Position numbers and translations under genes: made by a program. A stretch of DNA of 64,000 bases from Thermococcus sp. JdF3 (GTDB lineage Archaea > Methanobacteriota_B > Thermococci > Thermococcales > Thermococcaceae), in contig NZ_SNUK01000003.1 of the NCBI RefSeq assembly GCF_012027495.1, positions 186,001 to 250,000 of the forward strand, given 5' to 3'. The notes beneath the pieces were generated by a model. That model worked only from the letters and a program-made list of their open reading frames with translations, was not told where the DNA came from and did no database searches. This document shows, piece by piece, positions 4,786 to 23,453 of the stretch; positions within the stretch are counted from its first letter, which is position 1; every line of letters starts with the position of its first letter.

Positions 4786-5487
4786 TTAACCTCCCAGCTT
4801 CTTGATGCCCTTGATGTCGCCCTTCTGGACGAGTCTCAGCAGTTTGACCGCGTGGAAGAGCTGGGGGGCGTTGGCCTCGTCCTCCAGGAGCCCGTCCACG
4901 AGCCTGAGGAGTTCCTTCTCCGCCTTTTCCATCGCCCTCTCCGAGAAGTCCGAGAACTCGAGGGCCTTGACGATGGCGAGGAGCTCGGGGGGAAGGCCGG
5001 CAGAGCTTACGGGGCGTTTCGACTTGGCCCTCTTCCTCGACCCCCCTGGAGGTGCCCCCCTCGCCTTGGGCTTCTTTCCTGTGATCTCTGCGATGGCATT
5101 CCTTAGCTCCTCGACCTCTTTTGTAACGTCTATTCCTGCGGCTTTTAGAGTTCTTAGCGGATCTTTGATATCTGGCGAAAACGCCTCTTCCATCGCTCGC
5201 AGGTGCTTGACATCATGATCCTTTGGCCACATTTTATTGATGAGTTTTATCGTGGGGGGAATCGCTTCCTTTATTGCGCGCTCGGTGGACTTGGCAACCG
5301 ATGGTCCAAGTATTTCTCTTTCCTGTAATTTTTTCACAACAAGTTTTGCGAACTCTGAAGGCCTCTTTTCAACCTCCTCTATGCTTTTGTTTTTCATGAC
5401 GAGATAGTCGTATATTGCGTCACCTATGGCCCACCCGATATCTTCGTGTTCCTTGCCCAGATGGTTTGCAACAAGAACAGCGAGCAC
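4786..5487 (-). CDS. C-terminal frame of a split HExxH-motif protein, unknown family
   Basis: I do not recognise the family. The frame gives 233 residues from GTG 5487, but the same frame stays open upstream to a TGA near 5625, and that extra stretch encodes DHEYHHYIG at 5559-5533. This contains HEYHH, an exact HExxH zinc-protease motif. No ATG, GTG or TTG lies in this frame ahead of the motif, so it can be translated only by entry from the upstream frame (5580-5828) at the run of seven A at 5610-5616. The downstream part has a basic, Pro/Gly-rich linker (KPKARGAPPGGSRKRAKSKR) and a helical C-terminal domain. The joined product would be about 347 residues. The middle of the gene is visibly AT-richer than its neighbours, which suggests transfer. 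Confidence 0.6.
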   Translation of the reverse strand: MLAVLVANHLGKEHEDIGWAIGDAIYDYLVMKNKSIEEVEKRPSEFAKLVVKKLQEREILGPSVAKSTERAIKEAIPPTIKLINKMWPKDHDVKHLRAMEEAFSPDIKDPLRTLKAAGIDVTKEVEELRNAIAEITGKKPKARGAPPGGSRKRAKSKRPVSSAGLPPELLAIVKALEFSDFSERAMEKAEKELLRLVDGLLEDEANAPQLFHAVKLLRLVQKGDIKGIKKLGG

Positions 5488-5579
5488 TCCGTGGAGTATA
5501 TGGTATCCCCGTGACTTTGGGTCCCTCTCTCTCCCAATGTAATGATGGTACTCATGGTCAAAGAGTGCTCTAGCAGTTT

Positions 5580-5828
5580 TTAAGTCGCCAGTTTCATCAA
5601 CTGCAAGGGTTTTTTTACCCTTTCATAGTTTCTTTCAGGGTCTATTTGCCTTACGAACTCTATGTATCCGTTGAACGGCATATGCGCGCCTTCTATGGAC
5701 TCTATAACTTCTTCGGGTAGCCCATACTTCTTCGCCAGTTCTTTACGTATTTCTCTCCAAGGCTTCCTTTTTTTCTTCCCCCCGAATATGAACATCCCGG
5801 TCAAGGCCAGAAGCGACAAAGCCACCAC
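5580..5828 (-). CDS. N-terminal frame of the split HExxH protein: membrane anchor
   Basis: This 82-codon frame starts at GTG 5828 behind a GAGGGGTG ribosome site. Residues 2-17 (ALSLLALTGMFIFGG region) are hydrophobic and are followed by KKKRK, which is a single N-terminal membrane anchor. A charged helical region follows (WREIRKELAKKYG, then PEEVIESIEG). After residue 73 the frame crosses seven A; unshifted it ends after nine more residues (PLQLMKLAT), and shifted -1 it continues into TLAVDETGDLKTARALFDHEYHH. The shifted continuation reads naturally as protein while the unshifted tail does not, so the full gene is taken to be 4786-5828. It lies 140 bases downstream of the palindrome-flanked ATPase on the same strand. 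Confidence 0.6.
   Translation of the reverse strand: MVALSLLALTGMFIFGGKKKRKPWREIRKELAKKYGLPEEVIESIEGAHMPFNGYIEFVRQIDPERNYERVKKPLQLMKLAT
5610..5616 (-). other. A7 run: slippery heptamer or frameshift site
   Basis: Read on the minus strand the upstream gene runs GTA AAA AAA CCC. The A AAA AAA heptamer is a consensus -1 slippery sequence. A -1 slip gives AAA AAA ACC CTT and joins the 5580-5828 frame to the open frame encoding HEYHH. One A missing from the true genome or from the reads would look the same. Confidence 0.55.
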
Positions 5829-5875
5829 CCCTCAAACTTCATCGCTATTGGAGATAAGGTTTTCGAAGTCCCGGC

Positions 5876-5938
5876 GGGCCCCCCAAACCCCCGGTTCCAT
5901 GCAAGAAAGGGTTCCACTTTCCGGGGGTTTTGGTGCCC
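5876..5938 (-). repeat. Long imperfect inverted repeat between ATPase and split gene
   Basis: GGGC plus CCAAACCCCCGG (5876-5894) faces CCGGGGGTTTTGG plus GCCC (5921-5938), giving a GC-rich stem around a 26-base loop. It sits in the 139-base gap between the ATPase stop and the next gene and could be a terminator, an attenuator or part of a mobile-element end. Confidence 0.5.
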
Positions 5939-5946
5939 TTAACCCC

Positions 5947-5963
5947 CCACCAGTTACTGGTGG
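5947..5963. repeat. Palindrome copy 1, just after the ATPase stop
   Basis: CCACCAGT-T-ACTGGTGG is a perfect 8+1+8 inverted repeat ending 5 bases from the ATPase stop codon. The identical core recurs at 7038-7054 over the ATPase start, with six preceding C shared by both copies. Confidence 0.8.
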
Positions 5964-5967
5964 CCCC

Positions 5968-7032
5968 CTACCTGAAAGCCAGTTCCACGAGTGGGTCGGG
6001 GATCACGTAGCCATCAACGGTCTTTTCAAGGTAGCCGTAACGGACGAGGTTGCTGAGGACGTTGGAGAAGTTCTTGTCGTCTATCCTCTTCCCCTCAAGA
6101 ATCTCCACGGTCTCCTTTATCTCCTTCCAGCGGTGCTTCCCGTTGGCCACCGCCCGCATCGCCAGCTCGTAGCGGTGGGATAGCTCCCTCAGCCGGGAGA
6201 ACTCCGCCAGAATCAGCCTCTTAGCGTCCTCCTTGAGCCTCTGGAGAGCCCGGGAGTGGCCCAGCCCGAGGTAGCGGTTGTAGCCGTAGAGGGTGAGCCA
6301 GCCGACTATGCCGTCCAGCTCATCGACCGCCTCATCGATCTCCTCCCGTGAAACCCTAAGGCCGAGCTCGTCAAAACCCCTCTCAAGAAAATCCACGCTC
6401 TGGTGCCTCTCAAAACGCTTCAGCCTGATCTCCAGGTGGGGCCTCCCAAAGAGCGCCGAGCCCGGGTCATGAAGCCTCAGAAAGTCCTCCAGCAGGCCAA
6501 CCTCCGAGCCCGTCAGCACAAAGCTCACGTTCTCAAGCTCGTCGATGGCCCACGCGATGAGCTCGGGGTAGCGGGAATTCGAAAATCGCAGGTACTGGGC
6601 CTCGTCTATCGCGATGACAAAGCGCTCTCCGAGGGAGTTTATGCGCTCAAGGAGGCCGTAGAGGTTTACTCCCCTCTCGACCTCAACCTCAACGCCGAAT
6701 CCAAGGAGGCGCACGCCCCTGATGCTTCTCGCTAGCTCCCTGGCCCGCTCCTTTCCCGACCTCTTCAGGAACCCCTCGAGGATGAGCTTTGCCAGGGCCT
6801 CCCTCGGCACGTTGCCGAACTCGGAATAGACCTTTCTCGCGTCGATCTTGACGCTTCCGTAGGGTAGTTCGTTCAAAGCAACGTTCAGGAGTGAGCTCTT
6901 TCCAAGGCGCCTGATTCCGAGGATCGTAACGAGGCCAAGGACCTTCCTCAGGCCGTCCTCAACACGCTCAAGCTCATCTCTTCTGTCGTACAGTTCTTCC
7001 CTTCTGGTCTTCGGCCTCGGGTTGAAGAGCAT
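5968..7032 (-). CDS. Archaeal ATPase (ATPase_2/STAND-like P-loop NTPase)
   Basis: This 354-residue protein begins MLFNPRPKTRREELYDRRDEL, the typical opening of the archaeal ATPase_2 (PF01637) family. Walker A is GIRRLGKSSLL (near residue 41). Walker B is VIAIDEAQYL, followed by the family's sensor-like FVLTGSEVGLL. The C-terminal third is helical and ends in a winged-helix-like segment (KNFSNVLSNLVRYGYLEKTVDGY). Such proteins occur in many divergent copies per archaeal genome and are related to STAND NTPases; their partners are mostly unknown. ATG 7032 is chosen over GTG 7041 because homologues start with MLF; the G run of the flanking palindrome would serve as its ribosome site. The split HExxH gene follows on the same strand. 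Confidence 0.85.
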   Translation of the reverse strand: MLFNPRPKTRREELYDRRDELERVEDGLRKVLGLVTILGIRRLGKSSLLNVALNELPYGSVKIDARKVYSEFGNVPREALAKLILEGFLKRSGKERARELARSIRGVRLLGFGVEVEVERGVNLYGLLERINSLGERFVIAIDEAQYLRFSNSRYPELIAWAIDELENVSFVLTGSEVGLLEDFLRLHDPGSALFGRPHLEIRLKRFERHQSVDFLERGFDELGLRVSREEIDEAVDELDGIVGWLTLYGYNRYLGLGHSRALQRLKEDAKRLILAEFSRLRELSHRYELAMRAVANGKHRWKEIKETVEILEGKRIDDKNFSNVLSNLVRYGYLEKTVDGYVIPDPLVELAFR

Positions 7033-7033
7033 A

Positions 7034-7058
7034 CCCCCCACCAGTTACTGGTGGGGGG
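7034..7058. repeat. Palindrome copy 2, over the ATPase start
   Basis: Six C, then ACCAGT, T, ACTGGT, six G form a perfect 12+1+12 inverted repeat, two bases from the ATG of the ATPase. It replaces the usual ribosome site. As RNA the hairpin would bury the start region; as DNA it could be an operator or an element end. Confidence 0.8.
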
Positions 7059-7090
7059 CCTTCCTTAAAAAGGTGATGGGAAGAGAAAGT

Positions 7091-8146
7091 TCACCCGCTC
7101 TTCCCATAAATCTCGTTCAGTGCCTTCAGGAACTCGCTGGCGGTAACCACGTCCCTCACGTCGATGTGCTCGTTCTTGGTGTGGGAGATGTCGAGGTTTC
7201 CGGGGCCGAACACTATGGTTCTGGTTCCGTTGTACATGAAGTTTATGGCATCGGTCCAGCTCCTCATCCCGCCGAACTCGTCTATCTCCGTGACTTCCAT
7301 CGCCTTCTTCGCCAGCTGAACTATCTCCTCGTCCGGCTCCAGCCGGTAGCCGTCCCATATCTCGGTGTACTCGTACTTCAGCGTGTACTCGTCGAATATC
7401 GGGTCGAGCAGGTCGAGTATGTCCTCTACCTCCTGCTCGGGCAGAAGCCTCGCCTCAAGCCTTCCCCTGCAGAGGGCGGGGATTAAGTAGACCGGGTTCT
7501 CACAGACCAGCTCCTGGATTCCGATGTGAGGGTCGAAGAACTCGCCCCTGGCCTTGAAGGGCTCGAGCTTCTTCATCTCCTCCAGCATCTTGTAGGTCTC
7601 CTCTATCGCGTTCACCCCGCTCTCGGGGCACGCTCCGTGGGCCTCTTTGCCGTCCACCTCGAAGTAGGCCTCGATGTTGCCCGCGTGGGCTATGTGAACC
7701 TCCAGGTCGGTCGGTTCCAAAACGACGGCCATCTTTGGCTTGTAGCGCTCCATGAAGAGCGCACTCCCTTGGCCGCCCAGCTCCTCGTCGCTGACGAAGA
7801 CTATGCCGACGTTGAGTTCCTTCCCTTCCCTGCGGAGGTTCTCCAGCATGAGGAGTATAGCCGCCGCCCCGCCCTTGATGTCGCTCGCTCCGGTTCCGTA
7901 GACGATGTTGCCCCTCACGAAGGGCTCCGCGCGAATCGGTATCGTGTCGATGTGAACCTCATAGAAGAGCTCGGCCTCGGGGTTGACGACGAGGTCGATG
8001 ATCTGCCCGTCGCTCTCGATATGGACGTCGTAGTTCAGTTTGTGGAGGAACTCCATTATGTGGAGCATTATCCTGTCTTCCTCCCCGGATGGGGAGGGTA
8101 TCTTCAAAAGCTGAAGGAGTATCTCCTTCGCGCGCTCGGTTTTCAT
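7091..8146 (-). CDS. M20 family metallopeptidase / deacylase (ArgE/DapE/LysK-like)
   Basis: This 351-residue protein is a two-metal M20 amidohydrolase. Recognisable ligands and catalytic residues are YEVHIDT (metal His, catalytic Asp), GASDIKGG (bridging Asp), SDEELGG (catalytic Glu pair), VLEPTD (metal Glu) and the C-terminal SHTKNEH (metal His). A dimerisation domain lies between them. Members release amino acids from acylated precursors such as N-acetylornithine, succinyl-DAP or LysW-lysine. The gene stands alone here, away from any lysW or arg genes, so the substrate is open. ATG 8146 follows GGTGACCCAA and is preferred over the in-frame GTG at 8155. A TATA box shared with the divergent gene lies at 8179-8186. 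Confidence 0.85.
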   Translation of the reverse strand: MKTERAKEILLQLLKIPSPSGEEDRIMLHIMEFLHKLNYDVHIESDGQIIDLVVNPEAELFYEVHIDTIPIRAEPFVRGNIVYGTGASDIKGGAAAILLMLENLRREGKELNVGIVFVSDEELGGQGSALFMERYKPKMAVVLEPTDLEVHIAHAGNIEAYFEVDGKEAHGACPESGVNAIEETYKMLEEMKKLEPFKARGEFFDPHIGIQELVCENPVYLIPALCRGRLEARLLPEQEVEDILDLLDPIFDEYTLKYEYTEIWDGYRLEPDEEIVQLAKKAMEVTEIDEFGGMRSWTDAINFMYNGTRTIVFGPGNLDISHTKNEHIDVRDVVTASEFLKALNEIYGKSG

Positions 8147-8178
8147 TTGGGTCACCTAATTCAACCTCCGCGGTTGAG

Positions 8179-8186
8179 TTTATAAA
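8179..8186. promoter_or_regulatory. Shared palindromic TATA box
   Basis: TTTATAAA is its own reverse complement and lies 33 bases ahead of the M20 start on one side. On the other side it is about 26 bases ahead of position 8209, where the folded leader of the metallo-beta-lactamase gene begins. It can serve both directions. Confidence 0.55.
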
Positions 8187-8201
8187 CATCCCCCGCGTAA
8201 T

Positions 8202-8275
8202 TCGAGGGGGTGATGAAGAGTTTGACCCCTCCCGACGGGGTTTGCCCTCCGTATGAGGAGGCGGTCCTCCCTCGA
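8202..8275 (+). ncRNA. Structured leader (three-way junction candidate) before the MBL-fold gene
   Basis: The stretch between the TATA box and the GTG at 8297 can fold into three stems. P1 is TCGAGGG (8202-8208) with CCCTCGA (8269-8275). P2 is GACCCC (8224-8229) with GGGGTT (8237-8242). P3 is GCCCTCC (8244-8250) with GGAGGC (8257-8262) closing the loop GTATGA. The ribosome site GGAGGTGA at 8285 lies just beyond P1. I match it to no known riboswitch class. The predicted transcription start (about 8209) would cut off the 5' arm of P1, so P1 needs a slightly earlier start. Confidence 0.35.
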
Positions 8276-8296
8276 GCCCCTTTTGGAGGTGAAAGC

Positions 8297-9016
8297 GTGA
8301 GGATAAGCTCCATCGAGGAGTTCCCCCGCGAGATAGTGCCCGTTGAGATTCCTCCCCACACCACGATGCTGAGGGGCATAGGCTGGGACTCGAACGTCTA
8401 CCTGGTGAGGGACGGGAGAGAGGCCCTCGTAGTGGACACCGGCACCGGCGTTAACTGGCACGTCTACGCTGAAATCTGGGAGAGGGAAGGTCTCCTCAAC
8501 GGCGTTGAGAGGGTCACGATATTCAACACCCACGAGCACTTCGACCACGTGGGCGGGAACATGGCCCTGGCGGACTGGCTGAAGAGGAAGGGCATTGAGG
8601 TTCTCTTCGCCGCCCACGAAGCCACGGCAAAAACGCTGGAGAAGGGAGACGACTACGTGATTCTGGCCTACTCCTACGGAAGGAGGTTTGAACCGCAGAA
8701 GGTTGATCTCCACATGAGGGAGGGCGATGCGCTCAAGGTCGGCTCACTGGAGCTTGAGCTGATTCACACGCCCGGCCACACGGCGGGAAGTTCGTGCCTT
8801 TACCTGGACGATGGTGAGACGAGGGTGATGTTCACAGGGGATACAGTCTTCAACGGCACGGTTGGAAGGACGGATCTGCCGACAGGGAACGGCTGGAAAC
8901 TTCAGGAGAGCCTCGAAAGGCTCAGGGATTACGACGTTGATTTCGGTCTTCCTGGACACGGATGGGTCATAAAGGACTGGAGAGAGAACATCGATGAAAT
9001 CCTGGGGTGGCTCTGA
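8297..9016 (+). CDS. Metallo-beta-lactamase fold hydrolase (glyoxalase II-like)
   Basis: This 239-residue protein has THEHFDHVGG (HxHxDH zinc motif, about residue 80), HTPGHTAGS (third metal His), FTGDTVF (bridging Asp) and LPGHGW near the end. That makes it a complete two-metal MBL hydrolase of the hydroxyacylglutathione hydrolase type. Such enzymes cleave thioesters or phosphodiesters; the substrate is unknown. GTG 8297 sits behind a strong GGAGGTGA. An in-frame GTG at 8210 would add 29 residues, but that stretch is better read as a folded leader. The stop overlaps the ATG of the UPF0248 gene (TGATG), so the two are translationally coupled. Confidence 0.88.
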   Translation: MRISSIEEFPREIVPVEIPPHTTMLRGIGWDSNVYLVRDGREALVVDTGTGVNWHVYAEIWEREGLLNGVERVTIFNTHEHFDHVGGNMALADWLKRKGIEVLFAAHEATAKTLEKGDDYVILAYSYGRRFEPQKVDLHMREGDALKVGSLELELIHTPGHTAGSSCLYLDDGETRVMFTGDTVFNGTVGRTDLPTGNGWKLQESLERLRDYDVDFGLPGHGWVIKDWRENIDEILGWL

Positions 9017-10568: not shown

Positions 10569-13500
10569 ATGAGAAAAAGGGTTATATTTCTTATTTACCT
10601 CCTCTTAGCCTCCTATCTAAACGTGGGCTTCGTCGGCGTTTCCCATGTTGTCGGGGCCCAGGAAACGTACGTTTTTCAGGACGACTTCAACGACAACAGC
10701 CTCGATACGGATAAGTGGACAGAGGATGTTGTCGGTAGCGGGAACAGCTACACCGAAGCAAACGGAGAAGCCCAATTCATTACCTATGGGCATCAGGGAA
10801 TCGAGAACGGGCATGCGTTCCTTCGGAGCTCTATGATTCCCATAAACAACTGGAGTTACGTTATCTTCTCGGGAAGCTGGAAGTTCACAGATCCGGGAAC
10901 AGCAGAGATGTGGTTCAGGATTTATGACACTAACTCTGGCAACTACATCGGTGTACGCTATGTCAGCTGGCCAGCGGATAAGATAACATACGACCGGCCT
11001 GAGGGCTCGATAACGAACTATAGAGCCATTCCCAGAGATTACGTCACATTCAAGGTAGTTCTCTACAAGGATCACTTCGAATACTGGGAGGGCGGGAGTT
11101 TGGTCAAGACAGTGCCAACCACAGGCCTGGAGAACGCAACAAACTTCCAGCTGGTTATAGGAGGCTGGGACTATTCTTCCATCTACTCCCACATGTACTT
11201 TGACAACGCCGCGGTTGAGTACGAGCCGGCCCTTCCGGAGGACGAGCCCCTTGAGGTGACCATCGTTTCCCCGGAGGAAAGGGAGTACGACACGTCCGTG
11301 ATAGACCTGAACGTCACCGCCAACAAGCCGGTTGATGAGTGGCGCTACTCGCTCAACAGTGGAGAGAACGTGACGTTCACCCCGAACACCACCATAACGG
11401 CGCCGAACGGGGAGAACCTCCTCGTGGTATACGCCCTGGCCGGCGACGAGAGAGGAATGGCTCAGGTGAACTTCTATGTGAACGCGAGCGAGGAAGACAC
11501 AACTCCGCCGGGAACCGTTGAGAACCTCACCCACGAGGTTGGGACCGACTATATACACTGGACGTGGAAGAACCCGGAGGATGAGGACTTCGAGACTGCC
11601 CTCGTTTACATCGACGGGGAGTTTCAGGGCGAGACCGACGAGGGTGAGTGGTGGCTCGACGAGCTGTCACCGGGCGAGACCCATACGATTGGAATCCTCA
11701 CGAGGGATTATTCCGGGAACGTGAACACCACCTGGGTGAACGACACGGCAACGACGCTCACACCGGCCGAAACCGTCTACGTAAACGAGAGCGGCTGGTG
11801 GTACGAGGGAGGCGAGCTGAACCCCAGCGAGACCCCGCTCCAGGACGGCATAGACGGGGCTGTCAAGGGCGGGACGGTAATGGTCCTCGCCGGGACGTAC
11901 CCGGAGAGCGTCGAGGTGGACAAGCCCCTGACCGTGGAAACGGGCGAAAATGCCCGCGTAACCGGCGACGGCTCCGAATGGGAGAACGGGAAAAAGCCGG
12001 TCTTCTACGTGAGTTCGGACAACGTCACGCTGAGGGGGTTTGAGATAGACTCGTCGGTTTCCAACATCGGGGTCTGGCTCGATGACGTGGGGAACTGCAC
12101 GGTCGAGAACAACAATATCATCATAAGGGAGGCCGGGGAGAGCGAGCGCTACGGAATCTACCTCAGCTACGGTGGAAATCACGTGGTCAGGAACAACGAG
12201 GTGAGCGTCTCGGGCTTCCAGGGGGTCGGAATCTACGTCTACGAGACGGACGGCGAAAGCGACGTTTACGGGAACACCGTTGTAACTGAGGGCGACAGCG
12301 CCGATGGGATAGAGGTGTTCTACTCCTCGGCACGGGTTTACGACAACACGGTCTCGATAAGCGGCGTGGGGGAAACCCCCGGCTACGCGCTCTATCTGTA
12401 CCTGGCGGAAGATTCCTCGATAGACAACAACGGACTGACGACCAACCTGTCGGAGGAGAACGCGTGGGCGATACTCGTTATCGGGGAGTTCAAAGGTTCG
12501 CTGAGCGGAAACAGGATAAACGGAGTACAGACTGAGATAGTCTGCCCTGAAAACTGTCTCCTGAGGGGTGTTTCGCCGGAGAACAGACCCGCTCCCCCGG
12601 AGGGCTACGGGGACGTTGGGGAGTACCTGGAGATAGACGCCGATTCCTGGCTCCATCTGGGCCTTTACTACGACGATTCATCGCTGGGAGGCCTCAGAGA
12701 GGACACCCTGGAGATATGGCGCTTCAATGAGGACTGGACGCTCGATGGGACGAGCGGAGGGAGCCTGGACACATCGAAGAACCTTGTCGAAGCGAACCTG
12801 ACGCAGTTCAGCATCTTTGCCCCGCTGGCCCAGGAGGAGAACGACGTTACGCCTCCGGTTCTGACCTTCGTTGAGCCGACTCCAGAGAATGGTGCCCTCA
12901 TCGGATACTCCCATGTAGTTATCAACGTCACCTCGAACGAGAACCTAAGTGAAGCCCTCATCGAGTTCGATGGAGCAAACCACACCATGCTCGGCTCCGG
13001 GAGGAACTGGCACTACGAGGCCGACGTTTCGGACGGGGTTCACACTTTCAAAGCTTACGGGACTAACTTAGCTGGCAACAACGGAACGAGCGAGGGACGG
13101 AGCTTTGAGGTTGACACGAAGGCACCGGAATACTCGGAGGTTGGGCAGGACAAAGCTGGAATCCCACCCGGAGGGGAGCTTCACGTTCACGCCCTCTGGA
13201 GCGACCCGCATCTCAGCTACGCGAGGCTCGTCACGAACGCAACCGAGGGAGGGGCATGGGACTGGATAGACGATACCTTCTTCGAGGGGAGCGAGGGATG
13301 GAGCAACTTCACGATTTCAACCGAGGGGCTTGATCCGGGTCTCTACTGCTGGCGCATAGAAGCATCGGACTCCCTGGAGCACTGGAACTCGACCCCAACC
13401 GAGTGCTTCCGGCTTTATGAGCCGCCGGAGATAGTTTCTCACTCCCCCGAAAGCCCCGTCGAGAGCTACGTCGGCGATACCGTGACTTTCAGCATAACCG

Positions 13501-16500
13501 CGAGCCAGGTCGTGAACGTCACATGGTACCTCGACGGGAGCCCCGTGAAGACGGAGCAGAACGTCGAAACGTCCACCTACACCAACTCCGACGCTGGAGA
13601 GGGCGAGCACGGGGTAAGGGCGGCGGTAGAGAACGCCAACGGCTCGGCGAGCCAGTTCTGGGCGTGGTACGTCTATCCGAGGCCGGGCCTCACGGTGAGC
13701 TTCGTCGAGCCAACGCCGGAAAACGGGGCAAGGCTCAACGTGAGAACGGTGGTTATAAACGTCACCTCGTCGCTCGACCTTGAAAGCGCAACCCTCGAAT
13801 GGAACGGCGTCAACGAGAGCATGAGCGGCTCCGGAAGAAACTGGTGGGCAACCAAGGAGAACCTCGCCGATGGAACCTACACCTTCCGCGTTTACGGCTC
13901 GGCCGACGGAGTTAGCAACGCCACCGAGGAGAGAACGATAGAGATAGATGCAACGGCCCCGGGGTTCATCGAATACGGCCAGAGTTCGGACGAGGTTCTT
14001 GAAGGGGAGAGCATTGAGGTATTCGCGAGGTGGAGCGATGCCCATCTCGACGGGGCCGTTCTGGTGACGAACGCGACCTTCGTTGATGGAGCCTTCGTCT
14101 GGAGCGAGGTTCCTCTCGAAATCGCCGGCGGCTGGAGCAACTGGAGCATAAACACCGACGGGAACTTCGCGGGGAAGGTCTTCTGCTGGTACATCAGGGC
14201 AAACGACACCTTCGGGAACGAGAACGAGACACCGGAGCTGTGCTTCCGCGTCGGGGAAAGGCTGAGGATAATCTCATTCTCCCCAGAGGGCAATGAGGTG
14301 GAGCTTCCCCACAGCGGGACAGCGGTCTTCTCGGTGGAACTCAACCAGATTGCAAACGTCACGTGGTTCGTTAACGGGACGGAGGTTTTTGAAGAGGTAG
14401 GAAACGAATCCACGTACACGAACTCGACCCTGATTCCGGGCCTCTGGAACGTGAGCGTCATCGCCGGTAACGGGAACGGTCTCGCGAGGCACTGGTGGCT
14501 CATGAGGGTAAGGAGACCAGAGGCACCCCTTGATGTGATCATCACCGCGCCCGGGAACGGGTCGAGGGTGAAGGGGAACCATGTGGAGGTCAGGGTTGAG
14601 GCGAACAGGGAGCTCTCATCGGCGGTTCTGGAGCTGGACGGAGTAAACCACACGATGCTCGGCTCCGGAAAGAGCTGGAGCCTGAACGTTTCCCTGACTG
14701 ATGGTCACCACGTCATCAGGGCGTACGGAACGGACGAACGCGGAAACGGGGCAGCGAGCGGGGAGGTGGCTTTTGACTCCGACGGAAAGCCTCCGGAAAT
14801 AACGGTGAACTGTCCGGGGGAGGTGGACGAGGGGACATCGGTGACCGTGGAAGCGGTGATAAACGACGTCCACCCGGACAGTTACAGGGTGTACCTTGAC
14901 GAAGCCCTCCAAGAGGAAGGAGGGTACCCCAGCAACTCCACGCTCAGATTAACCTTCCAGGCCTCCGAACCCGGAATCGTGGAATACAGGATCTGGGCCA
15001 ACGACACCTTCGGATGGGAGAGCGAGAAAACCGTGGAGATTAGGGTGAGGGACAGAACGCCTCCGGCCCTTGCCCTGCTCCCGCCCACCCCGGAGAACGG
15101 CTCGATTCTGAACGAGAGCACGGTGGAGTTCAGGCTGCTCTCGAACGAGAACCTTTCGCAGGCCCTGCTTTACCTGAACGGGACCGCGTACGAAATGAAC
15201 GGCTCCGGAAGGAACTGGAGCCTGTCGATGGCGCTTGAGGACGGGGAATACAGCTTTTACATCGAGGCCTCGGACATAGAGGGCAACACCAACGAAACGG
15301 AGCGCAGAACCTTCAGGATTGACACCACCCCGCCAGCGCTCCGGTTCGTCCCGCCAACACCGGAAAACGGCTCCCTCATCAACACCTGCACATTCACTGT
15401 CACGGTAAACGCCAGCGAGCCCCTCGGCTCTGCCGTCCTGGAGATGGACGGAGGGAACTTCACGATGTCAGGATCGGGGAGGCTCTGGAGCTACACCGGA
15501 GAGCTCTGCTCCTCCGATGGTGAATACTCCTTCATGGTTTACGGCACCGACCTTGGGGGCAACAGGGGAACGAGCGGGAGGAGGACAATAGCGGTCGACT
15601 CAACCCCGCCGCTTATTGAATGGGTGCATGGGAGAAACATGAGCCCCATCGCGCCGGGAACCTTTGAGGTGGAGAGGCTCTCCAGAGCGTCCATCGAGGT
15701 GAACGCCACCGACGAGCACCCGCTGGTCTACGAGGTCTACCGTAACCCGCTTCCGAACCTGCTGGAGCCGCCCGTATGGAGAGGAAGCTACGAGAGCGGT
15801 GTTCCCTTTGGCTTCCCTGTCAGGACCCGGGAGGTGGGGGATGATGTTTACCTCATCGTCGTGAGGGACAGGGCAGGGAACGAGGCCAGGCTTAGATACA
15901 CGGTTCACGTCGTCGATACCACTCCGCCAGAGCCGGTTGCAGACCTGACGGTCAGCACGAGCACTTCGGGGTTCACCTCAAGGTGGAGGAACCCCACCAA
16001 CGATGACTTCGAGAGGGTTGAACTGTACCTCGATCCGAAGGAGATTGAGGGCGAGAAGGGAGAGAAGGTCATGGACTGGAACTCCTCACTCGTTGCCAAC
16101 CTCACGGGGGACCCGGGTGAGGAAATGGAGTTTTCGATGAACCTCGCCCACGGGAGGCACGTCCTGTACGTGAGGACCTTCGACAGATACTGGAACATCG
16201 GAAAGCCGGTGAGTATAGCTTTCACGGTGCCACTGCCAAACTTTGTGATTTACTACGTGAAACCCACCCCCGAGAACGGAACTGTCCTTGAGAGCGAGGT
16301 TCGGGAGGTCACGGTGGCTGTGGCATCGAGCGTATCGCTCAGGGAATGTCAGGTTACCTGGAACGGTGTATCGCTGCCGGCTGGGGTGACCAGGAACGCC
16401 TGCAGGGCGAGGTTCACCGTTATCCCCGGCGGAGAGTACAGCTTCTCGATATCGGCGACGGACGTGTACGGAAGAACCGCAAGGACTACCGTCCGGAGGT

Positions 16501-19500
16501 TTTCGGTAAAAAGGGAATGCTTTGCCGATGGAAGCTCCCTGACGATAGAATCCACAGGAGGACAGGACTCTCTCCTCTTCCCGGTGGAGTTCACGTTCGT
16601 AACAAACAGCCTCGCGAGGGAGTACTCCTACAGGGCTTCCGTCCGGGGTGAGAGCGTAAACGGCACCTTTGAGCCGGAGTTTGAGGTGGTTGGATTTAAA
16701 GAGGTCGAGGATCCCTTCTGGGGGAAGGTAGGGAGGCTCTACATCGTCAGGGCCATTTTCACCCTCGACCTCTGGGGGATAAGGGACGCCGTTTTGAAGG
16801 GAGCCGAGGAGAAGATCCCCGTGCACCTTGAGGTAAGGGCTACCGACGACTGTGCCCGCTCGCTCACGGCAGAGAAGGAGCTGACCGTCTGTGAAAACCC
16901 GGAGAAGCCCGACCTGTCGGTGAACCTGAAGGACTTCTACTACCGCGATGAAGAGGTCATCGTGTCCGCGGAGGTCACCAACGGTGTTCCTGTGAGGGAG
17001 TTCTACTACTCCATCAACGGGGGGCCATGGGGGGAGTTCAACGGGAGTGCAAACCTCACGGGCCTTCTGAGGCCGGGTGAGAACACGGTCTCGGTTATAG
17101 CCGTGAGCGGGTGCGGTGTAGAAGCGAGACGGGATGTTTCAGTGTTCCTCGGTCCGCCGAGCGACGGCGACTGGCTTGTGAACGATACAGAAGAGTGCAT
17201 CGGCCACGAGTTCACCGTGAACGGTGGACTGGCCGTGGATGAAACCGGCAACCTGACGCTCAGGGGCTGTAAGGTTCATCTCCGCGGAGGAGTGGGGGTG
17301 AATGGAAGTCTGAGAGTCCTTGAGGGCTCGCTGATAGGAAACGCAAGCGGACTATGGGGCGACTCCGGAAAGCTGGAGGTAGAGGACTCAACCCTTGAGG
17401 GCGGTAAAGTTGGGAGCTTCGTTGATGGAACGGTAAGGGTTGAAAGGGCACTGCTCGCGGGGGAGTTCACCTTTGAAATTTCCGAGGTTAGTATTGACTC
17501 AAGCAGGATTGAGGGCGGCCTCTTTACAGGTGGGAGCTTTGATATCACAAACACCCTCGTCACGGGCGGGGGAGGAATAGCGATCGGCGACGTGAGCGAG
17601 GGAAGGATCGAAAACGTAACTGTAAGGGACTGTACCTACGGGATCCATCTCATAAACGACAACGGGAGGAACGCGGTCTTCAGGGACGTCCTCGTGGAGA
17701 ACCCACGCGAGGCGGGGATTTTCATCGACCTGAGAGGAGGCTACTGGAGCGGGGAAGCGGTCTTCACGAACCTGAGCGTTGTCGGGGGCAACGTGGTGGT
17801 AAACGGGGGGAGCGCGACCTTCAACCGCTCAAAGATAGAGCCCGGGGAAGGCTACGCGGTGCTGGTGGATTCGGCGGGAAAAATCCTGACGTTCAAAAAC
17901 TCCAGCGTGGGAGGTAAGGGCTTCCTGATAAGGGAGCTGAGCACCCTCTCCCTCCGGGACAGCAACCTGAGTGGAGACATCAGGGGAAGCGTCGGCTACA
18001 CCGAGGTTCTGGTGAGTCCGGGAGCGAGGGCGTCGCTGAAGGGAGGTGCTGCGGACGAGGTCAGCTGCGACGTGAGGGGCGTTCTGTCCGTAGTCAGCTA
18101 CACCCTGAACCGCGGAAGTATAACCGTGCACGGCGGTGGGACGCTCAGGGTGGAGGACGAAGACGGCATTCCGGCCACAGACCCCGCCGATGGGGACGCC
18201 AGCGTCCTCAAAGGGGTTCTCATCCAGGAGGCTTCCGGCGAGGAAAAGGCACACCTCGTCTTCCTGAACTCCAGGCTCCAGAACGGCAGCATCGTCACCG
18301 ACTCCAGATGGTTCCTGATAAGGGGCAGCGTAATCGACGGCGAGCTGAGCTTCAACACCGACGACGAGTCCCTGAGCGGGGGTCTCAGCGGTGAGGTGGC
18401 CTTCGGCTCAAACGCCGGATGGTACTACAGCACGAATACGCTCCCGGAGAACTGGTACTACTCGCGGGACGTGGAGGGCATGAGCCTGGGCACAGGCCCC
18501 TTTGTTGCACGCTCCTCGACGGCACCGCTGGGCTGGAACTCTGGTACGGAACTTGGAACCTTCACCCTGCTGTATCTCAAGAGGACGTTCAGCGTGGAGG
18601 AGCTTCCGGTGAGGGCCACTCTGTTCTACTCCGCCGTCGGAAGGGTGGAGGTTTACGTGAACGGGCGGAGGGCCGTGAACGATGGAAGGCTCGGAGGCGT
18701 TTCGTTCGCAGGATTGGGCGCACACGGAAAGCCCCACTCGGGAAGCGTTGATGTGGCCCCCTACCTGCTTCCGGGGGACAACCTGATAGCCGTCCTCGTT
18801 AAGGTCCCCTCCGGCTACCCGTACCCGGAGTTCGGAGCCTTCAGGGCCTCCCTGACGCTGGAGAGCGGCCTGGCCTCCGTAACTGACAGCGTTCTCAACG
18901 GGAAGGTGAGCGGCTACGGGAGCAGGGTTATGTTCGCGAGGGACGAGATCAACACTGGGATGAGCTTCGGATACCTCTCCCGGGTCACCGTCTCGGACTC
19001 CCGGATACACGGCACCCTGCAGGCCGTCGGGAGGATTGAGCTTATCAACAGCGAGCTAATCGGCCAGGGAAGCGGAACGGGACTCAAGATGACCGATTAC
19101 GGGATGATGAAGGTGGAGAACTCCCGGATACACGGGTTTGACTGCGGAATAGTGGCCACGAGCGAGGTCAACGTAACCGGAAGCGAGGTGTATGACAACG
19201 ACGTCGGGATAAGACTGAAGAGTGCAAGGATCGTGGTTAAGGATTCCTACGTCATGAACAACGGCGTTGGGATAGAGACCTCCAACGTCACCGGCCGGAT
19301 AGACAACAGCGTGATCTACGGCAACAACATCGGCATAAGGGTTAACGCAGGGGGAGACGCCTACACGAGGGGCAATCAGCTGTCCATAACGCACGGAACC
19401 ATCGTCGGGAACTCCGTTGGGGTTCTATTCGAGGGAAGGGACGGGAGCGGCTACGTTGAGCTCACGAAGAGCCTGATCCAGAACAACGACCTTGGGTTGC

Positions 19501-22500
19501 TCATAAACTCGACTCCAACGCCAGGAATACGCTCCGATTCCCTGGTGAACGAAAGGGACGTGCTCGTAGAGGGCCCCTCCGCCCAGATGCTCTTCAACAT
19601 TGACTGGGGCGGTGAGGAGCCGGAGATGGTGCAGAGTTACCAGGAGGGGCTAATGTACACCCGCGATGGCACCATCAGGGAGGACTACGACATACTCGCG
19701 AGGAACTGGAAGCCGGTTGTGTACAACTCAACCGAGACCGGGGAAGATTGGGGTTCCAGCCTCCTCTCGGCCTTTTTGGAGGTAATCCCCGTTGAAAACG
19801 GGTCCGTGAAAGGAGTGATAACCCTAGCCGGAAAGGCCGTATCCAGGGACGGCATCTCAAAGGTCACCTACTCCCTTGAGAGAAACGGAAGCGTGGAAAC
19901 GCTGGCCGAGGTTTCCGTCGGCTCGACCACCTACGACGACTACATACTCGTGGACACGCTCGGGATGAACCTCACCGGTCCGGGGGTTCTGAGGTTCACG
20001 GCCACGGATTCAACCGGCAAGAATCTCACGAGCTCCGTGAGGGTTTACTTCGCCAACGCCGAGGTTGTGCTGGAGAACGTCAGCGTCAAAAACGCCACCA
20101 ACGTCTACTCGCTCTACACGGTTAAATACGACGACTACACGGAGGGGCCGCATGACTTCGCCCTGAACTGGGACAGGATGGCGTGCGTCACGGTGAGCCT
20201 GAGGAACACCGGGCTGATGAACGGAACGGCGAGGGTCGTGCTGGAACTGCCGGAGTACATCGAGAGGCACACCGGAAAGGTCGAGGGAATCGCCTACCTG
20301 CCGCCCAACGGGTCCCTGAACCTGGAGTTCGTGATACCTGTCGTTGAATACGACTGGGGAACCATGACGTGGGACGTGCTGCCCGATGAACTGCCGGACC
20401 TGGAAAGGTTCACCGTCAGGGTCAAGCTCTACGACGAGGACAACCTGCTGAGGGCAGATGTACCCGTGAGGGTGGGCTTCACCCTCGGCCCGGTCTTCGA
20501 GATAACACACTACACCATGTACCCGTACTCCAGGGCCTACTGCGAGAGCTTCCCCAACGACTGCCACAACACCCCGCCCTACGACGGGGACGGCGACGAT
20601 ACCGTCGAAGCTGCCGAAAGCCACCACTTCGACCTTAGCTACGAGAACATCGGCGACAGGGATGCGGAGGTGCTGATGATAGACCTGACGGACCATATAC
20701 CCGAGAGGTATCCCGGGGAGAAGATACTCCGCGGGCAGAGCGCATACATATTCCCGAACTCCTCGGCCCTTGCGGACACTAGCCCCGGCTCCTTTGACCT
20801 CCTCGGAAGCGCCCCCGTCGGGGTCGAGAAGAGCGGCAAGTATCTCTTCATCGACTGGTGGGCGGACGTTCCTCCCGTGATAATCCCGCCTGTGAACTTC
20901 AGCGGGGACTACCTCACGAACGCCATGTTCTACTACAGGAGCGAGGACGAGAAGACCTACTACACCCCTAGCCTGAACTACAAGGAGAGACCGGTGAAGG
21001 CCCTGAACAAGACCTTCGTGGTTCAGAACGTCAGGATGGACCCGATAGAGGTCAAGGTGCTCGCGGTGAAGAACGGCAAAACCTACGTTGAGCTGCACAA
21101 CACCAACGGGAACGTGTACTACGACTACTTCGTCCAGGGCTCCTACGGGCCGGGCGAGGGCTACCTGTGGTACCACTTCATACCGCCCGACTTCACGATG
21201 AGGGCGATAGCCGACAACAGCCTCGAACCCAACAGGACGATACCCCACTACAGGATCGTAGTGGGTGCCATGCCCTCGATGACGGGGAACATCCTCAAGG
21301 TCTTCGCATCCACGCTTGAGGCATTCCTGGGAGTGCTCGGTGTGGAGGTTCCGGCCGAAACGATAACCATCGCCCTCGCCCACACCGCCGTGAAGGTGGT
21401 GAACCTGGCCGAGACCGTGGACTTCCAGACGGAGTCTGAGAGCTTCGAGTCGATAAACTCCAGCGCCAGGAGGGACGAGGTAGACGCGGCCATCATAGCG
21501 AGCAACGAGACGGCCATAGCCCCTGTCGGTATAGACACCTTTGCCAGGCTCGAGGAGAACTACGGCATGGACAGGGAGTACTACAACAGCCTGGAGAACC
21601 TTGAGGAGCTTCCCGTTGCCCAACAGGCAGAGGTTCTTGGAAAGCTCGTCAAGGCGATAGTGCTGGACGAGGACCTTCAGATACTCCTCCTGGAGACGAT
21701 AATAGCGCTCAACAACATGAACCTCTACTACAACCTCGCCAAGATAGCCAAGGGAATCTACACGGGGGACAGGGGTGAGGTCGTCGGCGCTGGAAGTGCC
21801 GTGGGAACGGCCGGGCTGAAGAAGGGCCTGAAAAAGGCCGCCAAGAAGGCGGTTCTAAAGGAGCTGAAGAAGACGAGCTACTACAAGGGACTGACGCCCG
21901 CTGAGCAGGATGAATACGAGAAGAAAGTGGGGAAGGGCGTTGGGGCGATAGTGACCTACACCTTCGACATGTCCCAGTTCGTCACATACGTGGTTCTGGC
22001 CCCGGTTCCAGGGAGCAGAACGATATACGTCCTCGACCCGCCCGGCAACTTCACGGTGCACGCTGAGAGTTCCAATGTGACGGTGCTCGGAGGGGGAAGC
22101 GTTGGAGCGGGCATTGGAAACGTGTCGCTGTCCCTGGGCGATGTGGACGTTTACCGCGCCAGCTACGTGAGCTCCACGGAAAGCCTGCCCACAGCGGCCC
22201 TCTTCAACGGAACCCTGCTCTGGATAAGAACCAGCGTGAGGGGCCGGAGAAGGGGCGAGATGCTCGGCAACGTGACGATAACCATGAAACCCACGGCCGA
22301 GGGGGCGGGGCGTCTCCTGAGGGCACTCAGGGACGAGGGCACCATGGGGATGCTCCTTGGGGCATACTTCGCGGAGAAGCCCCTCTGGAACGTTTCCACT
22401 GCGGGGGGAGTTGTGACCATCACAGCCTCCGGAATCCTGAACTCCCTTCCGTGCGAGGAGGAAACGGGGATAGAAATCTTCGCGAACGCAAACGTCACCC

Positions 22501-23453
22501 TGGCCAACGTAACCCGGATTGGACACTACGGGGACGTCATCGAGATAAGGCCCTCCTTCGTCCCACTGAACTCGACGACGATCCACGTGACCGGTAACGC
22601 CTCCGTCGGGGTTCTGGACGACGTTGTAACAGTTGTCAGGGGAAGCGTGAAGGCCCCGGAGCTGAATGCTTTTCCGCTGACACTCGAAGCGGGAAAGAGA
22701 ATCACCATAACGGCACCGGAAGAATGCGTGGTGGAGTGGAGACTCGACGGAAGGACCGGAAGAGGAATCTTCGTGCCCACCGACGGCCTGAAGGTAGGAA
22801 AGCACACACTTGGGGCCACCTGCATGGCCGGAAACTTCAGCACATCGAGGGACTTTACGGTCGAGATAATAGAACCCCGGATCGCGCCGGAAAAAGCCTC
22901 CGGAACGCTTGTAAAGGGCTCCGGGTTTATGGTGTTTGAGTTCGGGACGGACCTCAACATGATCTCCCTCGTGGCCCCGGAGGAGGTTGAAGGCCCAATA
23001 GCCGTCTCTCAGGAGCCAGGAGGAGAGATCACGGGCTACGCGGTGTACTCGACCTTCAATGTCACCCATCCGGGGAACTGGAGCGTGGAAAACGTCACCC
23101 TGTACTTCAGGGTTCCGAAGAGATGGTTCGAGGAGAACAATGCCAGCCCCGAGAACCTCGCTCTTCTCCGCAGGGGTGGGGGCTGGGAGGAATACGTCCC
23201 GGTTCTGGACTACGAGGACGTAAACTACCTCCACTACCACGCGGAGGTCCCGTCCCTCTCCATCTTCGCCGTTGCGGTGAAAGTCACACAGGAGGAACAT
23301 GAGATCCAGGAAGAGACGGAAACACCGACCCACACGGAAAGCCCGACCGAAACGGCCCCCGCGGGGGCTCCGGAAGGGAGTAACACGACCTATTACGTTC
23401 TTGCGGCGCTGGCTATTCTGGCGCTTTTAGCCTACGCATACAGGAGGCGGTGA
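10569..23453 (+). CDS. Giant secreted membrane-tethered beta-helix / Ig-like surface protein (4294 aa)
   Basis: A signal peptide (residues 1-30, cleavage near VVGAQE) starts this exported protein. A lectin-like sandwich (DDFNDNSLDTDKW, to about 215) and fibronectin-like modules follow. A first right-handed parallel beta-helix spans about 404-694 (FEIDSS, VENNNIII, VVRNNEV repeats). Six Ig-like units are marked by (P/T)PENG or APGNG near 769, 1046, 1323, 1506, 1595 and 1898. A second, longer beta-helix spans about 2200-2980 and is interrupted at 2617-2768 by a sandwich like those of glycosidases. Near 4100-4240 is a domain resembling PGF-pre-PGF (YFRVPKRWFEEN, SLSIFAVAV), then a Thr/Glu-rich stalk and a final helix ending YAYRRR. 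N-glycosylation sequons are very frequent. It could be an adhesin, a polysaccharide-binding or a sheath protein; no catalytic site is evident. Confidence 0.9.
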   Translation: MRKRVIFLIYLLLASYLNVGFVGVSHVVGAQETYVFQDDFNDNSLDTDKWTEDVVGSGNSYTEANGEAQFITYGHQGIENGHAFLRSSMIPINNWSYVIFSGSWKFTDPGTAEMWFRIYDTNSGNYIGVRYVSWPADKITYDRPEGSITNYRAIPRDYVTFKVVLYKDHFEYWEGGSLVKTVPTTGLENATNFQLVIGGWDYSSIYSHMYFDNAAVEYEPALPEDEPLEVTIVSPEEREYDTSVIDLNVTANKPVDEWRYSLNSGENVTFTPNTTITAPNGENLLVVYALAGDERGMAQVNFYVNASEEDTTPPGTVENLTHEVGTDYIHWTWKNPEDEDFETALVYIDGEFQGETDEGEWWLDELSPGETHTIGILTRDYSGNVNTTWVNDTATTLTPAETVYVNESGWWYEGGELNPSETPLQDGIDGAVKGGTVMVLAGTYPESVEVDKPLTVETGENARVTGDGSEWENGKKPVFYVSSDNVTLRGFEIDSSVSNIGVWLDDVGNCTVENNNIIIREAGESERYGIYLSYGGNHVVRNNEVSVSGFQGVGIYVYETDGESDVYGNTVVTEGDSADGIEVFYSSARVYDNTVSISGVGETPGYALYLYLAEDSSIDNNGLTTNLSEENAWAILVIGEFKGSLSGNRINGVQTEIVCPENCLLRGVSPENRPAPPEGYGDVGEYLEIDADSWLHLGLYYDDSSLGGLREDTLEIWRFNEDWTLDGTSGGSLDTSKNLVEANLTQFSIFAPLAQEENDVTPPVLTFVEPTPENGALIGYSHVVINVTSNENLSEALIEFDGANHTMLGSGRNWHYEADVSDGVHTFKAYGTNLAGNNGTSEGRSFEVDTKAPEYSEVGQDKAGIPPGGELHVHALWSDPHLSYARLVTNATEGGAWDWIDDTFFEGSEGWSNFTISTEGLDPGLYCWRIEASDSLEHWNSTPTECFRLYEPPEIVSHSPESPVESYVGDTVTFSITASQVVNVTWYLDGSPVKTEQNVETSTYTNSDAGEGEHGVRAAVENANGSASQFWAWYVYPRPGLTVSFVEPTPENGARLNVRTVVINVTSSLDLESATLEWNGVNESMSGSGRNWWATKENLADGTYTFRVYGSADGVSNATEERTIEIDATAPGFIEYGQSSDEVLEGESIEVFARWSDAHLDGAVLVTNATFVDGAFVWSEVPLEIAGGWSNWSINTDGNFAGKVFCWYIRANDTFGNENETPELCFRVGERLRIISFSPEGNEVELPHSGTAVFSVELNQIANVTWFVNGTEVFEEVGNESTYTNSTLIPGLWNVSVIAGNGNGLARHWWLMRVRRPEAPLDVIITAPGNGSRVKGNHVEVRVEANRELSSAVLELDGVNHTMLGSGKSWSLNVSLTDGHHVIRAYGTDERGNGAASGEVAFDSDGKPPEITVNCPGEVDEGTSVTVEAVINDVHPDSYRVYLDEALQEEGGYPSNSTLRLTFQASEPGIVEYRIWANDTFGWESEKTVEIRVRDRTPPALALLPPTPENGSILNESTVEFRLLSNENLSQALLYLNGTAYEMNGSGRNWSLSMALEDGEYSFYIEASDIEGNTNETERRTFRIDTTPPALRFVPPTPENGSLINTCTFTVTVNASEPLGSAVLEMDGGNFTMSGSGRLWSYTGELCSSDGEYSFMVYGTDLGGNRGTSGRRTIAVDSTPPLIEWVHGRNMSPIAPGTFEVERLSRASIEVNATDEHPLVYEVYRNPLPNLLEPPVWRGSYESGVPFGFPVRTREVGDDVYLIVVRDRAGNEARLRYTVHVVDTTPPEPVADLTVSTSTSGFTSRWRNPTNDDFERVELYLDPKEIEGEKGEKVMDWNSSLVANLTGDPGEEMEFSMNLAHGRHVLYVRTFDRYWNIGKPVSIAFTVPLPNFVIYYVKPTPENGTVLESEVREVTVAVASSVSLRECQVTWNGVSLPAGVTRNACRARFTVIPGGEYSFSISATDVYGRTARTTVRRFSVKRECFADGSSLTIESTGGQDSLLFPVEFTFVTNSLAREYSYRASVRGESVNGTFEPEFEVVGFKEVEDPFWGKVGRLYIVRAIFTLDLWGIRDAVLKGAEEKIPVHLEVRATDDCARSLTAEKELTVCENPEKPDLSVNLKDFYYRDEEVIVSAEVTNGVPVREFYYSINGGPWGEFNGSANLTGLLRPGENTVSVIAVSGCGVEARRDVSVFLGPPSDGDWLVNDTEECIGHEFTVNGGLAVDETGNLTLRGCKVHLRGGVGVNGSLRVLEGSLIGNASGLWGDSGKLEVEDSTLEGGKVGSFVDGTVRVERALLAGEFTFEISEVSIDSSRIEGGLFTGGSFDITNTLVTGGGGIAIGDVSEGRIENVTVRDCTYGIHLINDNGRNAVFRDVLVENPREAGIFIDLRGGYWSGEAVFTNLSVVGGNVVVNGGSATFNRSKIEPGEGYAVLVDSAGKILTFKNSSVGGKGFLIRELSTLSLRDSNLSGDIRGSVGYTEVLVSPGARASLKGGAADEVSCDVRGVLSVVSYTLNRGSITVHGGGTLRVEDEDGIPATDPADGDASVLKGVLIQEASGEEKAHLVFLNSRLQNGSIVTDSRWFLIRGSVIDGELSFNTDDESLSGGLSGEVAFGSNAGWYYSTNTLPENWYYSRDVEGMSLGTGPFVARSSTAPLGWNSGTELGTFTLLYLKRTFSVEELPVRATLFYSAVGRVEVYVNGRRAVNDGRLGGVSFAGLGAHGKPHSGSVDVAPYLLPGDNLIAVLVKVPSGYPYPEFGAFRASLTLESGLASVTDSVLNGKVSGYGSRVMFARDEINTGMSFGYLSRVTVSDSRIHGTLQAVGRIELINSELIGQGSGTGLKMTDYGMMKVENSRIHGFDCGIVATSEVNVTGSEVYDNDVGIRLKSARIVVKDSYVMNNGVGIETSNVTGRIDNSVIYGNNIGIRVNAGGDAYTRGNQLSITHGTIVGNSVGVLFEGRDGSGYVELTKSLIQNNDLGLLINSTPTPGIRSDSLVNERDVLVEGPSAQMLFNIDWGGEEPEMVQSYQEGLMYTRDGTIREDYDILARNWKPVVYNSTETGEDWGSSLLSAFLEVIPVENGSVKGVITLAGKAVSRDGISKVTYSLERNGSVETLAEVSVGSTTYDDYILVDTLGMNLTGPGVLRFTATDSTGKNLTSSVRVYFANAEVVLENVSVKNATNVYSLYTVKYDDYTEGPHDFALNWDRMACVTVSLRNTGLMNGTARVVLELPEYIERHTGKVEGIAYLPPNGSLNLEFVIPVVEYDWGTMTWDVLPDELPDLERFTVRVKLYDEDNLLRADVPVRVGFTLGPVFEITHYTMYPYSRAYCESFPNDCHNTPPYDGDGDDTVEAAESHHFDLSYENIGDRDAEVLMIDLTDHIPERYPGEKILRGQSAYIFPNSSALADTSPGSFDLLGSAPVGVEKSGKYLFIDWWADVPPVIIPPVNFSGDYLTNAMFYYRSEDEKTYYTPSLNYKERPVKALNKTFVVQNVRMDPIEVKVLAVKNGKTYVELHNTNGNVYYDYFVQGSYGPGEGYLWYHFIPPDFTMRAIADNSLEPNRTIPHYRIVVGAMPSMTGNILKVFASTLEAFLGVLGVEVPAETITIALAHTAVKVVNLAETVDFQTESESFESINSSARRDEVDAAIIASNETAIAPVGIDTFARLEENYGMDREYYNSLENLEELPVAQQAEVLGKLVKAIVLDEDLQILLLETIIALNNMNLYYNLAKIAKGIYTGDRGEVVGAGSAVGTAGLKKGLKKAAKKAVLKELKKTSYYKGLTPAEQDEYEKKVGKGVGAIVTYTFDMSQFVTYVVLAPVPGSRTIYVLDPPGNFTVHAESSNVTVLGGGSVGAGIGNVSLSLGDVDVYRASYVSSTESLPTAALFNGTLLWIRTSVRGRRRGEMLGNVTITMKPTAEGAGRLLRALRDEGTMGMLLGAYFAEKPLWNVSTAGGVVTITASGILNSLPCEEETGIEIFANANVTLANVTRIGHYGDVIEIRPSFVPLNSTTIHVTGNASVGVLDDVVTVVRGSVKAPELNAFPLTLEAGKRITITAPEECVVEWRLDGRTGRGIFVPTDGLKVGKHTLGATCMAGNFSTSRDFTVEIIEPRIAPEKASGTLVKGSGFMVFEFGTDLNMISLVAPEEVEGPIAVSQEPGGEITGYAVYSTFNVTHPGNWSVENVTLYFRVPKRWFEENNASPENLALLRRGGGWEEYVPVLDYEDVNYLHYHAEVPSLSIFAVAVKVTQEEHEIQEETETPTHTESPTETAPAGAPEGSNTTYYVLAALAILALLAYAYRRR

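Follow-up and report, generated by a model that had tools for sequence, protein, structure and literature searches.

The split gene and its product

The locus near the start of the window (by which we mean the whole 64,000-nucleotide stretch of Thermococcus sp. JdF3 DNA analysed here) raises the question of why a single gene should lose its reading frame at a run of seven adenines, and whether the interruption is an error, a recoding signal, a mark of decay or a switch. The upstream frame carries GTA AAA AAA CCC, in which the A-run is exactly seven bases long, while the -1 frame is open down to the stop codon at 4786-4788 (translation TLAVDETGDLKTARALFDHEYHH) and offers no start codon until the GTG at 5487, deep within the core (Table 1). 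Continuous relatives (L021/L073, L008/L076) align with the two parts over their whole length as one protein, which makes the two frames a single gene and the A7 run the place where its frame breaks. Up to this point the sequence-only reading, which had joined the two frames at this run into a product of 347 aa, holds good. The product is likely to be 344 aa long, with translation starting at TTG 5819 rather than at GTG 5828, since three relatives have an ATG at exactly that position and the promoter and GGTGGTG block precedes it. The promoter block is conserved in an alignment of about 50 upstream regions, and its pattern was matched in 19 of 61 congeneric genomes, against 0 for a reversed-pattern control. 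A second such block lies elsewhere in the window's genome (G000:C1:348243, L156), followed by a scrambled remnant of another family member.

Table 1. Features of the split gene and its surroundings in the window
Feature	Position	Strand	Remarks
ORF1, N-terminal part	5580..5828	minus	82 aa with the GTG start, 79 aa with TTG 5819; its end is out of frame
ORF2, C-terminal part, -1 frame, ~275 aa	4786..5612	minus	helical core finishing in GIDVTKEVEELRNAIAEITGKK
A7 run at which the frame is lost	5610..5616	minus	A8 in L072, L074b, L118 and L024; A7 in L070
First A7 run, in the lysine-rich N-terminus GGKKKRK	5768..5774	minus	
GAGAGAGAG tract, encoding GRERDPK	5525..5533	minus	in frame in the window; broken in L072, L070 and L118
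HEYHH (HExxH string)	5542..5556	minus	not conserved among relatives
Exchangeable C-terminal domain (GLPPELLAIVKALEFSDFSE...)	4786..5001	minus	
Probable start codon TTG	5817..5819	minus	ATG in L074, L099 and L118; conserved place after GGTGGTG; inferred
Promoter block GAAAACCTTATCTCC...GAAGTTTGAGGGGTGGTG: BRE/TATA-like element and GGTGGTG ribosome-site-like stretch	5823..5864	minus	common to paralogues
AAA ATPase gene upstream, intact	5968..7041	minus	ATPase_2 PF01637 and MCM_C winged helix

The two A7 runs of Table 1 are the only A or T runs of at least 7 nt in the entire window. The G+C content of the gene lies between 0.37 and 0.51 (about 0.45) and rises to 0.63 near the border of the C-terminal domain. 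Elsewhere in the window, a single ORF of 4294 aa (10569-23453) apparently encodes a giant protein, secreted or on the cell surface, whose domains are repeated.

The product had been read from its sequence as a membrane-anchored HExxH protein, perhaps a protease. The HEYHH string is indeed present, though in just 1 of 53 copies of the gene; with the motif unconserved, no Pfam or NCBIfam family (peptidase profiles included) matched in profile searches, and no fold matched in the PDB, a zincin protease was rejected. The putative anchor is doubtful as well: its hydrophobic stretch of about 13 residues is short, is dispensable in that several relatives lack it and begin at MFFKKK or MLFRKK, and comes out disordered when an intact relative is modelled, and this idea too was abandoned. 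Sequence searches, and fold searches against PDB and BFVD, gave chance-level matches only. The AlphaFold model of that intact protein (L073; pLDDT 87, pTM 0.69) is all-helical and is predicted to consist, in order, of a disordered tip at the N-terminus, a helical N-terminal part, a small hairpin at the zone of the repeats, a core and a separate C-terminal domain.

A family of mostly broken copies

The window gene belongs to a hitherto uncharacterised family of heat-loving archaea. By tblastn and profile searches its relatives occur in Thermococcaceae only, in 48 of the 94 genomes of that family; no match was found among 72,556 plasmids or in IMG/VR viral contigs, and a plasmid or viral origin was accordingly rejected. 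Sixty regions were taken, their loci labelled with L and a number, and the proteins were aligned to the DNA by a frame-aware dynamic programme. The genes share a common anatomy. Behind a BRE/TATA-like promoter of their own and a TTG or ATG start come some 75-90 residues of helical N-terminal sequence, then the repeat-rich zone and the helical core, followed by a conserved linker (GIDIEPELEEFRQFLAEISGKK) and finally a C-terminal domain subject to exchange among copies.

Six of the approximately 53 copies are fully in frame (L073, L076, L093, L103, L104 and L111) and about 46 are broken, while L074b is in frame over the part present on its contig. The in-frame share of 6/53 is rarer than the 1/3 expected of a freely drifting frame, and the on and off labels are scattered over the family tree (6 changes, against a shuffled mean of 5.8). 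True decay is real in some copies, with further lesions or deletions in L075, L089 and L074. Three loci (L139, L152 and L154) hold remnants, their N-terminal tip cut short or fused directly to the C-terminal domain, the join in L152 falling between two stretches coding for GGKK and SGKK.

Repeat tracts at the break

The breaks are concentrated in one place. Under a uniform frameshift penalty, the first break fell at residues 65-105 in 33 of 44 broken copies and inside a run of at least 6 nt in 26 of 44, with 7.7% of positions qualifying; the copies being related by ancestry, these break statistics and the tract statistics below are not independent and are descriptive rather than strict tests. 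A second pass with a lower penalty at repeats gave a repeat-only count of 31 copies, which is biased by that penalty, as the first pass is not. In-frame stops within the break zone mostly sit between two slips at adjacent tracts. The usual break sites are A6-A8, (TA)n or (GA)n runs, of which A7/A8 encodes VKK, (TA)n YIYI and (GA)n RER.

Repeat runs are 40-130 times denser in the break zone than in the flanking DNA, for which 454 kb around the loci served as background: A or T runs of at least 7 nt number 3.15 per kb in the zone versus 0.073 per kb in the flanks, and TA runs of at least 8 nt 2.6 per kb versus 0.02, while tract density in the core is at the background level. The 48 tracts observed compare with 14.8 +/- 3.3 when synonymous codons are shuffled gene-wide and 31.4 +/- 3.4 when they are shuffled within the zone only, and AAA makes up 62% of Lys codons in the break zone versus 41% downstream. 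Codon choice thus adds to tract density beyond what the amino acids need.

It had been expected that orthologues with eight adenines at the window's A7 would be ordinary genes. The A8 copies of Table 1 are indeed continuous at that run, but they do not become ordinary genes, since most are broken at a second repeat, namely the GA run whose frame is kept in the window, and since similar breaks turn up throughout the family. In other subfamilies the break lies at (TA)4 or (TA)5, or at A5-A8, and L111 is in frame with (TA)9. In one subfamily of about nine members (including L082, L087, L089, L106 and L112), the run is A7 five times and otherwise A5 or A8, but never the in-frame A6, a bias that would be unexpected under plain random switching.

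Near-identical alleles differ in the length of these tracts. The comparison covered one genome per species. L093 (on) and L096 (off) are 93.8% identical and differ in tract lengths, as do L074b (on as far as it can be read) and L118 (off) at 95.2% identity. L024 and L070 (95.9% identical) are A8/A7 and one GA unit apart, with other gaps besides, and the window gene and L072, which occupy the same chromosomal site in sister species and are 96.2% identical, likewise differ in tract length and by other gaps. The crude indel total across all pairs was set aside, being dominated by alignment gaps in the recombined C-termini.

Exchanged C-termini and the AC-tract proteins

Cores that are 0.90-0.98 identical carry C-termini that are mostly 0.2-0.45 identical. 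No C-terminal domain was recognised by Pfam, and no toxin domain, secretion signal or immunity gene by Pfam or PADLOC. The C-terminal domain is also found on proteins with unrelated bodies, several of them under the same promoter block, and these proteins break at an (AC)4-6 tract encoding THTH, many ORFs beginning exactly at the AC run (L128, L129, L101, L164, L126, L179, L125, L161, L169 and L177). L128 (on) and L129 (off) are 93.6% identical over 1,143 nt, and their sole indel is two AC units. L101 (on) and L164 (off) differ by a 4-nt step at the AC tract, as do L126 and L179, with further gaps in both pairs only elsewhere. Downstream dN/dS of the AC pairs is 0.22 and 0.20, with no stops. 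This set is the strongest evidence that the tracts themselves matter and are not a quirk of one sequence. The N-terminal tip is also found on an unrelated body, in that an upstream ORF of 541 aa (L104:3332-4957) begins with the same tip (VVSLSLLALTGMLIFEGKK).

Selection on broken copies and their neighbours

Both halves of the broken copies are under purifying selection. Where two broken copies are compared, the downstream halves stay open with few stops at dS of up to about 1.5, the dN/dS of the C-terminal part is 0.06-0.44, and that of the upstream part is mostly lower still. About 29 copies have an ATPase gene immediately upstream and in the same orientation, often 4 nt away; the neighbouring ATPases are of several types (PF01637, often with DUF234/PF03008), and they give single uninterrupted alignments at every locus that has one, save for L081 and L082 at contig ends. 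Taken together, the downstream dN/dS values and the uninterrupted ATPases mean that general decay or bad sequence fails as an explanation.

The PADLOC candidate PDC-S27 matches the neighbour of L021 and, weakly, the window's own ATPase. The site between an M20 peptidase gene and a helicase gene, which in the window (4786-9016) holds the ATPase and the family gene, carries different subfamilies and ATPases by species and is a variable hot spot, seen at L072, L074, L075, L078, L079, L081, L102, L105 and L106 as well as in the window.

Proposed repeat-based switching and its rivals

The best explanation of these findings, to which we give a probability of roughly two in three, is that the window gene is one out-of-frame allele of a phase-variable gene, i.e. 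a simple-sequence contingency gene. Three traits of such genes were found in this family: dense coding repeats, near-identical alleles differing by repeat units, and selection in the off alleles. Replication slippage would add or remove repeat units, so that a tract in frame would give the full protein and a tract out of frame a truncated N-terminal piece, and the switch would let one population carry both states. We infer that slippage is the source of the length steps and that it is reversible; Pyrococcus replicative polymerases are known to slip in vitro (PMC4134008). Slippage is probably left uncorrected by repair, since the window's genome has NucS and no detectable MutS (no match to MutS_III), and mycobacterial NucS does not repair indels of 1-2 nt (PMC11551767). 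As to function, our guess, held less firmly, is a polymorphic conflict or defence-type protein, given the AAA ATPase neighbours, the swapping C-terminal domains and the off state in most sequenced genomes, which would suit a costly effector. The chances are evenly balanced for a broader proposal, in which Thermococcales would have a dedicated multi-locus contingency system: a superfamily with exchangeable domains and a common promoter type, each body with its own tract (A, TA, GA or AC), a random subset of effectors expressed per cell, and mismatch repair blind to small indels.

The main rival, which we consider unlikely, is that a fast-turnover family is dying repeatedly, with indels landing first in slippage-prone sequence, and that the off copies are young and irreversible pseudogenes. 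Off is after all the majority state, and truncated and internally deleted remnants exist alongside copies with several lesions. Such pseudogenes should not, however, keep their downstream halves open and under purifying selection to a dS of about 1.5 in broken-broken pairs, nor would decay explain a codon choice that keeps tracts beyond the need for amino acids, the tracts borne independently at the same relative place by unrelated N-terminal modules, or adjacent ATPases without decay. An error of sequencing or assembly, with one A missing from the window's genome, was the plain alternative from the outset, the run being a homopolymer in a single assembly whose nearest orthologue has A8. It could hold for the window's one base without changing the result for the family, for which it cannot account: another genome shares the A7 (L070), the breaks extend to dinucleotide tracts, and the assemblies concerned have intact neighbouring genes. 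As a rival explanation we regard it as very improbable.

The sequence-only reading had favoured a programmed -1 shift, and we considered more generally that RNA polymerase slippage or ribosomal frameshifting might yield some full-length protein from every off allele. The A AAA AAA at the break lies in frame, qualifies formally as a -1 heptamer and would shift in the direction required (the run recurs in L070), the C-terminal part is under selection though out of frame, and one subfamily clusters at A7 without A6. Across the copies, however, restoring the frame at the first break takes a -1-like shift in 24 and a +1-like shift in 22; many copies break at TA, GA or AC runs, which are no ribosomal slippery sites; and in- and out-of-frame alleles coexist in near-identical genes. 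The RNA 3' of the A7 run (89 nt) is no more structured than shuffled sequences (z -0.09). With its direction unconserved among homologues and no stimulatory structure, programmed -1 ribosomal frameshifting was rejected, and recoding of any kind seems to us improbable. That the two frames are translationally coupled genes, sometimes fused, is scarcely credible: in the model the break does fall where the helical N-terminal part gives way to the core, but an ATG or GTG lies near the ORF1 stop in only 13 of 46 copies, about as often as chance would give, on which ground coupling was rejected, and in the window the first start is the GTG within the core.

Significance and comparison with known systems

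To our knowledge, on/off switching driven by repeats has been described almost exclusively in bacteria and hardly at all in archaea. A literature search, which took in few subscription papers, returned no report of repeat-based phase variation in Thermococcales, and a 2025 review treats the extent of such switching in archaea as an open matter (PMC11868660). If repeat-based switching is the right reading, archaea too would bet-hedge by means of hypermutable tracts, in their case tied to NucS-type repair, and a set of uncharacterised proteins that shuffle rapidly, and that may act in conflicts with viruses, would be opened to a simple genetic test in laboratory Thermococcus. Dozens of apparent pseudogenes or frameshift errors in Thermococcaceae genomes may in that case be switchable genes.

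Among the known features of these genomes, the VARTIG loci (arCOG07710) are hypervariable islands of Thermococcales, centred on a large Ig-domain protein with membrane proteins, in which some genes have been called fragments or pseudogenes (PMC8416519). They resemble our family in being variable genes of the same archaea, but the family has no Ig match, is all-helical in the model and stands beside AAA ATPases; membership of VARTIG, taken from its published description, was rejected on the first two counts. The archaeal AAA ATPase genes (PF01637, DUF234/PF03008, PDC-S27) are neighbours only, of several types, and stay intact. Polymorphic toxin systems share the plan of a conserved body with exchangeable C-terminal domains, but in this family neither Pfam nor PADLOC recognised a toxin domain, a secretion signal or an immunity partner.

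Closer in mechanism is the homopolymer phase variation of Mycobacterium (Vargas et al. 2023, as cited in PMC11551767), where NucS-type mismatch repair likewise leaves 1-2-nt indels alone, although the genes and the domain of life are different and the tracts described here belong to one dedicated gene superfamily. The bacterial SSR contingency loci, with slipped-strand phase variation in Neisseria, Haemophilus and Campylobacter (PMC11868660, PMC3711429), differ in that the host here is an archaeal hyperthermophile, that the tracts (A7-A8, (TA)4-9, (GA)n and (AC)4-6) are short by bacterial standards, that C-terminal domain exchange is added, and that switching within a clone is here a proposal. 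With those loci the family nevertheless shares coding repeats, unit-step differences between near-identical alleles, on and off alleles, multiple loci and otherwise intact frames.
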